Source of the DNA: Shouchella oshimensis
Lineage (GTDB): Bacteria; Bacillota; Bacilli; Bacillales; Bacillaceae_D
DNA length: 64,000 nt
NCBI RefSeq assembly: GCF_002019765.1
Contig: NZ_KV917380.1
Span: 1,445,858-1,509,857, forward strand
Reading direction: 5' to 3'
The notes beneath the pieces are model-generated. The model was not told the origin of the DNA. It saw nothing but the letters and a program-made list of their open reading frames with translations, and did no database searches. This document shows, in pieces, positions 63,195 to 64,000 of this stretch (its first letter is position 1; the number at the start of each line of letters is the position of its first letter). The translations under genes and the position numbers were made by a program.

Positions 63195-63253
63195 AACCTT
63201 TACTCTTAAACTAGGTAAAGAAGGAAAACGGTTGGGAGGAGGCGGAACGTGTA

Positions 63254-63913
63254 ATGGAGCAGTCATGGGAAGTGTTAGTAGACGCCTTACTTGACGGAGA
63301 TGAAGATCGTGCTTGGGATTGTGTCCGTCGCCTATCTGATGCGGGATATGATAGTATTTGGATATATGAAAAATTGTTAACGAAAGCTATGGCGCATACT
63401 GGGTGGCTATGGGAACAGAATGAGATAACAATCGCTGATGAACATTTAGCTACATCAACATGTGATTTTGTACTAACACGCTATCACCATTATATACGAA
63501 AATGGCGCATGCCCAAAAACGGCAAAAGCTTGATGTTTTTATGTTTAGATCAAGAGCAACATGATCTTGGGATCAAAATGTGCGCCTGTTTATTGGAAGA
63601 GTTGGGCTGGACGACACGGTTATTAGGAGCCAGTGTGCCCCTTGAGCAAGCGGAAATGATGGCGAAGAAATGGCAGCCTGATGCCATTGCCATTTCAGTT
63701 TCTATTCCGTATCATGCCCGCAGTTTAAGTTTGTATGTTGATACGTTAGAAAATTTACCTCATAAACCAACGATCGTTATTGGTGGACGACTTGTATCAA
63801 TGTACGATTTAAGTCCGCTTTGTAATGAACAAACCGTATTAATTGGAAACTTAGCAGAATTAGCTAAATGGCAGGAAAGACAGTTAGAGGTGAATGCGGA
63901 TGTCCGCCATTAA
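63254..63913 (+). CDS. CarH-type cobalamin-binding sensor protein without DNA-binding domain
   Basis: 219 residues: an N-terminal four-helix B12-binding-2 domain (about 5-80) and a Rossmann B12-binding domain (about 90-215). It carries the W-x9-EH motif of AdoCbl photoreceptors (Trp53, Glu63, His64 in WEQNEITIADEHLAT), strikingly like CarH, and ExHxxG with lower-ligand His103 (EQHDLG). The His that follows the Trp in Thermus CarH is Glu54 here. No MerR domain precedes it, so it must signal through a partner; the overlapping downstream gene is the obvious candidate. ATG start after GGAGGAGGCGG. Confidence 0.88.
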   Translation: MEQSWEVLVDALLDGDEDRAWDCVRRLSDAGYDSIWIYEKLLTKAMAHTGWLWEQNEITIADEHLATSTCDFVLTRYHHYIRKWRMPKNGKSLMFLCLDQEQHDLGIKMCACLLEELGWTTRLLGASVPLEQAEMMAKKWQPDAIAISVSIPYHARSLSLYVDTLENLPHKPTIVIGGRLVSMYDLSPLCNEQTVLIGNLAELAKWQERQLEVNADVRH

Positions 63914-64000
63914 TCGTTTACCAGTTCCCTATTTTGAGTTAGACGAAACGTATCAAATCTTGAATCGCTCGATTGTTGCTAAACAAGCGTTTAAACAAGC
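63900..64000 (+). CDS. Start of a downstream gene, cut by window end
   Basis: ATG at 63900 with AGAGGTGA 6 bases upstream, overlapping the cobalamin sensor by 14 bases. The visible 33 residues (MSAINRLPVPYFELDETYQI, then LNRSIVAKQAFKQ) look like the beginning of a PAS-type domain (F-E-L-D..Y-I-L), but this is too short to be certain. Tight overlap implies it works with the sensor. Confidence 0.7.
   Translation, partial: MSAINRLPVPYFELDETYQILNRSIVAKQAFKQ

Follow-up and report, generated by a model that had tools for sequence, protein, structure and literature searches.

A stand-alone cobalamin-binding protein of Shouchella oshimensis, encoded near the end of the window (the whole stretch of DNA that was analysed, 64,000 nucleotides), is interpreted here as the cobalamin half of a split photocobilin, i.e. 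a sensor of green and perhaps red light that would signal through a YtvA-like partner to the stressosome. For this scheme taken as a whole we regard the chances as a little better than even, while several of its parts can be stated more firmly. The protein itself is an established member of a conserved family and not a chance reading frame.

The 219-residue protein scored 54.2 bits with the Pfam family B12-binding_2 (cut-off 23) and 42.8 bits with B12-binding (cut-off 32.1), and no Pfam family besides these two was matched at E ≤ 0.1. Its AlphaFold2 model (pLDDT 93.9, pTM 0.88), calculated with an alignment depth of 49 related sequences, comprises four helices (residues 4-13, 17-29, 34-54 and 60-84) and, behind them, a Rossmann-type fold of alternating strands and helices. 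The preliminary description of this DNA had noted the lack of a DNA-binding domain, and this agrees with the determined data, as only B12 families were matched and the model opens with the B12 cap. The features are compiled in Table 1.

Table 1. Positions of the B12 gene, its parts and the start of the partner gene in the window
Feature	Position	Strand	Basis
Stand-alone cobalamin-binding protein, 219 aa (B12-binding_2 cap + B12-binding Rossmann domain)	63254..63913	+	ORF, Pfam, AlphaFold2
Four-helix B12 cap, residues 7-74	63272..63475	+	Pfam PF02607
Upper-face light signature GxxW...EH, W53 to E63-H64	63410..63445	+	sequence; 80/80 loci
Rossmann cobalamin-binding domain, residues 94-182	63533..63799	+	Pfam PF02310
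Lower cobalt ligand motif E101-x-H103-x-x-G106 (EQHDLG, 101-106)	63554..63571	+	sequence; 80/80 loci
GxxxP motif, G125-xxx-P129	63626..63640	+	sequence; motif from PMC11796333 (excerpt)
Likely ribosome-binding site of the B12 gene, purine-rich GGGAGGAGG	63233..63241	+	by eye
Start of the partner gene (ATG 63894 or 63900); PAS-like + long helix + STAS, continues beyond the window	63894..64000	+	

A pattern scan of 84,980 species genomes yielded 375 candidate stretches and 357 relatives, and the analysis covered the best 80 of the latter. GxxW-x9-EH and ExHxxG were found in all 80; since the scan pattern contains EH, this part of the count is partly built in, while the Trp and ExHxxG lie outside the pattern. 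In an alignment of 19 stand-alone proteins including that of S. oshimensis, G50, W53, E63, H64, E101, H103 and G106 were present without exception. Within the S. oshimensis protein, the W-x9-EH pattern occurs once, and W53, E63 and H64 align with W131, E141 and H142 of Thermus CarH with spacings of 10 and 11 in both proteins. The residues named in the preliminary description (Trp53, Glu63, His64 and His103 of the ExHxxG motif) were therefore confirmed, and the superposition on Thermus CarH proposed there gave a fold match (8c31_D) with Trp, Glu and His in register. Its placement of Glu54 at the position of CarH His132 was likewise borne out by the register, which was taken from CarH sequences including the H132A variant, with H132 directly after W131. 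The further suggestion that Glu54 hints at altered photochemistry did not hold as an argument against a light response. Glu is the norm of the family at this place (74 of the best 80 of 357 relatives, besides four Gln and two Leu), and SasPcob and CtMerR carry Gln and Arg, respectively, yet are light-responsive according to the available excerpts (PMC11796333, PMC10979010).

For cobalamin-binding domains, four light-signature motifs (SignatureFinder) have been described, GxxW, EH, GxxH and GxxxP (PMC11796333, excerpt). GxxW, EH and GxxxP are present in the S. oshimensis protein, GxxxP being nearly invariant in the 19-protein alignment and invariant in alignment A5. The Gly of GxxH is replaced by Gln100; Gly was determined at this place in 26 of the 80 relatives. 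The protein very probably binds cobalamin and is likely to respond to light.

By profile scores against the PDB, the photocobilin SasPcob (101.5 bits) is closer to the B12 domain than Thermus CarH (46.5 bits) and AerR (38.2 bits). A Foldseek search with the model placed SasPcob (8j2x) first by E-value (TMq 0.83, rmsd 2.0 Å), with the CtMerR B12 domain (8jbs_B; TMq 0.88) next and then CarH of Thermus (8c31_D; TMq 0.75). In a tree of 27 rows, all seven MerR-B12 proteins of the same order formed one separate side (support 100/99). Since the photocobilin is nearer by profile and first by fold E-value, and the MerR-B12 proteins stand apart in the tree, the protein cannot be described as CarH minus its DNA-binding domain. 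The membership in the CarH/LitR group claimed earlier thus stands for the shared B12 and light residues but not for the closest relationship. CarH/LitR (Thermus CarH 5c8d, 8c31) and CtMerR (8jbs) have the fold, the Trp, the Glu-His and the His ligand in common with the S. oshimensis protein, which differs from CarH by the missing MerR domain, by Glu in place of His132 and by a score of only 47.5 bits with the NCBIfam CarH model (cut-off 400). A truncated or decayed CarH was ruled out by the separate tree side of the seven MerR-B12 proteins and the residues kept in 80 of 80 relatives. Among the best 80 of the 357 relatives, the nearest named one belongs to Shouchella miscanthi (94%). A match at 1e-10 was obtained in 25 of 60 genomes near S. 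oshimensis (itself counted), some of these being MerR-fused.

The proposal that the protein signals through a partner gained much from the gene neighbours, as a partner gene lies directly downstream and is cut by the window end. The complete partner (L003:3752-4501) comprises 249 aa, and the start at 63900 corresponds to the commonest overlap in relatives, 14 bases. The homologue and neighbour search that had been proposed returned the PAS-helix partner gene next to the B12 gene, on its 3' side, in all of the best 80 of 357 loci. The two genes overlap in 74 of 80 loci and are separated by a gap of 2-13 bases in five, and in the remaining one (L046) the partner frame is broken into two pieces, the first of which overlaps. 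A profile of PAS and helix matched 80 of 80 partners and a STAS profile 78 (all except L104 and L108), while the single S. oshimensis partner sequence scored 22.1 bits with Pfam STAS, just below the cut-off of 22.6. The Pfam PAS family gave no match in the partner N-terminus; it is the predicted structure and its Foldseek matches that speak for PAS. For the S. miscanthi partner, AlphaFold (pLDDT 86.2, pTM 0.49) predicts a PAS-like fold (about residues 13-94), then a helix (99-137) and a STAS-like domain (148-248).

Co-occurrence gave the same picture. Among 179 genomes of the order, 75 carry the stand-alone B12 gene; these were hand-picked as frames without a fused domain at E up to about 1e-35, with broken copies in G085, G086 and G135 included and MerR-fused and other long frames left out. 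The PAS+helix part was also determined in 75 of the 179 genomes, 71 of them B12-positive, whereas the B12 protein occurred alone in four (G135, G176, G199, G200) and the partner without stand-alone B12 in four (G081, G118, G151, G205), corresponding to a Fisher value of 1e-39, which, like the further values below, overstates independence because the species are related. It is very probable that the B12 protein acts through this partner. A comparable arrangement is known from AerR (7te2) and CrtJ, where a stand-alone B12 protein is likewise co-encoded with a PAS-helix regulator. AerR is a B12 photoreceptor cotranscribed with CrtJ, with a modelled contact at the helix beside the PAS domain (PMC9144470, excerpt). 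In contrast to CrtJ, which is a DNA-binding regulator, the partner described here ends in STAS, and AerR is the weaker match by profile.

The closest relatives of the STAS part suggest a direction for the output. A profile of 18 partners against the PDB matched YtvA (2mwg) first, with 62 bits over the STAS part, followed by stressosome RsbR chains. Foldseek with the partner model also returned full-length YtvA first (E 7.8e-13, 259 columns), with a TMq of only 0.40 and an rmsd of 16.7, which may reflect a different placement of the domains in the model. The NCBIfam YtvA model scored 60.3 bits on the partner (cut-off 250) and covered the STAS part only. In common with YtvA and RsbR, the partner has the order of a PAS-type sensor, a linker helix and an RsbR-type STAS. 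It differs from YtvA in lacking the LOV flavin motif with its reactive Cys, which the genome's own YtvA (331.9 bits with the NCBIfam model, cut-off 250) does contain as GTNCRFLQ; light would accordingly have to enter via the separate B12 protein. The difference from RsbR concerns the phosphorylation sites, described as T171 and T205 for RsbRA (PMC3944199, excerpt). Counted by hand along the sequences, these places are Asp and Asn in the S. oshimensis partner, and Thr or Ser at the T205 place was determined in 8 of 62 relatives with a readable motif (18 of 80 being unreadable by pattern). Since the YtvA of S. oshimensis likewise comprises no phospho-residues at the two places, a YtvA-like role of the partner is compatible with their absence.

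A second set of genes connects the B12 protein with bilins. In 55 of the 80 loci, the B12 gene is preceded by abm, encoding a haem-monooxygenase-like protein of about 101 aa, and by a homologue of the photoglobins (about 120 aa), the two genes overlapping by 4 bases in 51 of the 55. The photoglobin profile matched phycocyanin (E 6e-4) and photocobilins (E 0.0035) in the PDB, and no haem globin was among its matches there at E ≤ 0.1. A Cys at the place of the phycocyanin CXRD Cys (as CxxD) was found by pattern in 50 of 55 photoglobins; the S. oshimensis copy carries Thr. The ABM-fold protein of S. oshimensis is nearest to haem-degrading HmuQ with 44.2 bits, which lies below the cut-off of 130, and the W-x9-H pattern is missing in 11 of 55 abm proteins. 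In S. oshimensis, the abm-photoglobin pair (at 2.41 Mb) and the B12 gene (at 1.51 Mb) are unlinked, 0.9 Mb apart. The same 5 of 13 Shouchella genomes carry both the B12 gene and the photoglobin and the other eight carry neither; across the 179 genomes sampled from the order, the two genes occur together in 64 and are both missing in 99, with the photoglobin alone in 5 and the B12 gene alone in 11 (1e-30, again with overstated independence). It is likely that the photoglobin belongs to the same system. Photoglobins were reportedly named by Schneider in 2022.

As a side observation, the S. oshimensis pair lies about 2.4 kb downstream of the YtvA orthologue (L122:4909-5611 and L122:8049-8846), and the stretch in between contains a small frame on the opposite strand and two frames that by eye resemble an acyl-CoA dehydrogenase and a trypsin-like protease.

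Photocobilins (SasPcob, AbDPcob; PDB 8j2w, 8j2x, 8j2y) are the closest solved B12 domains by profile, and both systems go with photoglobin. A photocobilin is a B12 domain fused to a biliverdin-binding globin, while the S. oshimensis protein has no globin part and its photoglobin is encoded elsewhere. B12 protein, photoglobin and output are separate proteins here, the output is STAS, and the abm gene is added in 55 of 80 loci. In the excerpts available (PMC10979010), photocobilins are described as responding to green light with biliverdin adjoining the conserved Trp, a stand-alone photocobilin is said to be able to act on a separate enzyme via protein contacts, and STAS and SpoIIE-type proteins are named as potential SasPcob interactors. 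BBAG-2/B12 clusters, Myxococcales included, also have separate globin and B12-binding genes, with the haem oxygenase in the cluster or elsewhere (PMC10151467, excerpt); the words 'stas', 'bacillus' and 'firmicutes' do not occur in the main text of that paper, which thus covers no STAS partner and no Bacilli. Among the matches listed from the open-licence literature, no B12-STAS-stressosome light module was found.

For the output, the open reading frames of S. oshimensis show the order rsbR-rsbS-rsbT-rsbU-rsbV-rsbW-sigB-rsbX, with SigB named by NCBIfam (394.9 bits, cut-off 315), rsbR by Pfam (RsbR_N + STAS) and the rest by eye. RsbT was found in 137 of the 179 genomes of the order, namely in 71 of 75 B12-positive against 66 of 104 B12-negative ones (6e-7). 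All 49 genomes that carry a STAS-length partner have it, compared with 88 of the remaining 130 (2e-7), the relatedness of the species inflating both values. By open-frame length, the STAS form was assigned to 49 genomes, a kinase form to 12 (8 with RsbT) and a short form to 21 (all with RsbT), some genomes holding two forms; sequences were read for some, and two kinase-length partners checked by Pfam both comprise HisKA + HATPase. Three of the four B12-positive genomes without RsbT have the kinase form (G096 and G207 by sequence, G183 by frame length), and in the fourth, G135, a photoglobin-B12 frame adjoins a GGDEF-like gene. Since its STAS is YtvA-like and it co-occurs with RsbT, we infer that the partner is part of the stressosome, and an output at this point is reasonably probable. 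Against this counts that RsbT is common anyway and that kinase-length and short partners also mostly occur with RsbT.

In S. oshimensis the B12 gene lies 0.59 Mb from rsbT. For 83 B12 places entered and the RsbT places listed, the B12 gene shares a contig with rsbT in 33; 12 of the 33 cases, spread over four genera, have the two genes within 15 kb. One of the 12 is L136, where a second rsbT with a frame that by eye resembles rsbS (L136:11699-12509) lies about 6-7 kb from a four-gene module. The search for a SigB-type promoter upstream of the module gave no signal (4 of 80 stretches compared to about 2 of 80 in shuffles).

The proposed working would be as follows. In the dark, adenosylcobalamin would be held between the cap (W53, E63, H64) and the Rossmann domain with His103 as the lower ligand; green light would break the Co-C bond and the cap would shift. 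The photoglobin would carry a linear tetrapyrrole supplied by the haem-monooxygenase homologue and dock on the cap in the manner of fused photocobilins, possibly making the system sensitive to red light too. From the cap, the signal would reach the co-encoded PAS-helix-STAS partner, with the PAS/long-helix region as the probable place of transfer, and the YtvA-like STAS in the stressosome would alter the release of RsbT and hence the activity of SigB. That light acting on adenosylcobalamin moves the cap and thereby the partner is deduced from the photocobilin work (PMC10979010) and from AerR-CrtJ (PMC9144470), both in excerpt.

Alternatively, the protein could report the loading with adenosylcobalamin, not light, to the PAS-STAS partner, and thus be a sensor of cobalamin availability. 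The B12 fold and the ligand residues are established, while a light response is deduced, and the genome contains a cobalamin adenosyltransferase homologue (PF01923, 174 bits), which speaks for the split photocobilin too, as well as a second B12-domain frame of 1152 aa. Nonetheless, we consider this explanation unlikely, since all 80 relatives retain the Trp/Glu-His cap, a signature tied by others to light response (PMC11796333, excerpt), and since both the co-occurring photoglobin and the haem-monooxygenase homologue linked to the B12 gene suggest bilin and light. A bound cobalamin or haem could also read the redox state, with the ABM protein and the globin handling haem or bilin stress signals, in a sensor of redox or of oxygen and haem. 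The related SCHIC domain of AppA binds haem (PMC9144470, excerpt), and the similarity of the abm protein to HmuQ would fit as well. However, the lower-ligand motif is of the cobalamin-protein type, the fold fits best to photocobilin, CtMerR and CarH, and the globin profile matched phycocyanin and photocobilin but no haem globin within the stated limit, which makes this explanation very unlikely.

If light is the stimulus, the STAS output could still lie elsewhere, in another partner-switching module or in mere binding within a photoglobin/B12 complex. This would agree with the missing conserved phospho-acceptor in the partner STAS and with other loci that fuse PAS-helix to a histidine kinase or place the B12 gene beside GGDEF genes, which indicates a flexible output. 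It is quite unlikely, as YtvA and stressosome RsbR are the closest STAS relatives, all 49 genomes with a STAS-length partner have RsbT, the four B12-positive genomes lacking it carry kinase-length partners (three) or a GGDEF neighbour (one), and a second rsbT with an rsbS-like frame lies near one module. A corrinoid subunit of a methyltransferase (MtaC/MtbC/MetH type) was rejected as extremely improbable. Corrinoid models of NCBIfam match weakly, up to 30.2 bits and far under their cut-offs, and the predicted cobalamin-binding protein 1y80 of the PDB gave 46.2 bits, but no methyltransferase-like frame was seen among the neighbours (by eye; four neighbours by Pfam), and neither the W-x9-EH cap nor a PAS-helix signalling partner encoded at all 80 loci fits such a role.

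The blue-light LOV protein YtvA is the known route of light into the stressosome. In a 2011 paper (PMC3019169), the mechanism is given as unknown in Listeria, and for B. subtilis RsbP is named as proposed, with no receptor unambiguously identified. If the reading as a split photocobilin is true, green and possibly red light would enter the same stress-response hub in the carrier species, the stand-alone B12 gene being present in 75 of the 179 genomes sampled from the order. The module would also provide small, separable parts for study and optogenetics.

Loci with a different output suggest a wider picture. The PAS-helix partner is fused to a histidine kinase in L151:3090-4196 and L155:2366-3478 (Pfam) and in L152:2313-3419 and L153:2977-4110 (by eye), and in L151, L152 and L155, abm and photoglobin are located after the kinase and not ahead of the B12 gene. 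Short partners were observed in L130:1940-2566, L160:2309-2953, L161:2757-3377 and L162:2943-3590. By eye, their tail resembles the kinase form's second DHp helix with the catalytic parts missing. Downstream of each, a large gene is oriented towards the partner; also by eye, it is kinase-like in L130 and CheR-like in L160-L162. In L129:528-2896, a GGDEF-like gene, the B12 gene, abm and photoglobin stand in a row, perhaps as a c-di-GMP-linked relative, and in L127:2312-3472 a photoglobin-B12 stretch in two frames lies beside GGDEF-like genes. The name GGDEF was assigned by eye. It is conceivable, at slightly less than even chances, that these forms belong to a three-protein multi-colour photoreceptor of Bacillales, in which separate adenosylcobalamin (green) and bilin-globin (red) proteins would share a common PAS-helix adaptor, the output being swapped between STAS (stressosome and SigB, beside the blue-light YtvA of the same cell) and histidine kinase, with a short tail-degenerate form and GGDEF-linked relatives elsewhere. 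Such a photoreceptor would give the general stress response a B12-based light input and would be a candidate for red-light SigB activation in the species that bear the module.

A decaying module was found at G118:C29:50075-50714 (L138), where the partner is partly kept, the photoglobin match lies in two opposite-strand pieces and no stand-alone B12 match was obtained. One record with a typical Bacillales module (L087) is named Chryseobacterium sp. ISL-80, so that the name or the assembly may be wrong. In other Bacillales (L124, L125, L126), B12-domain matches lie inside open frames of 572-601 aa.
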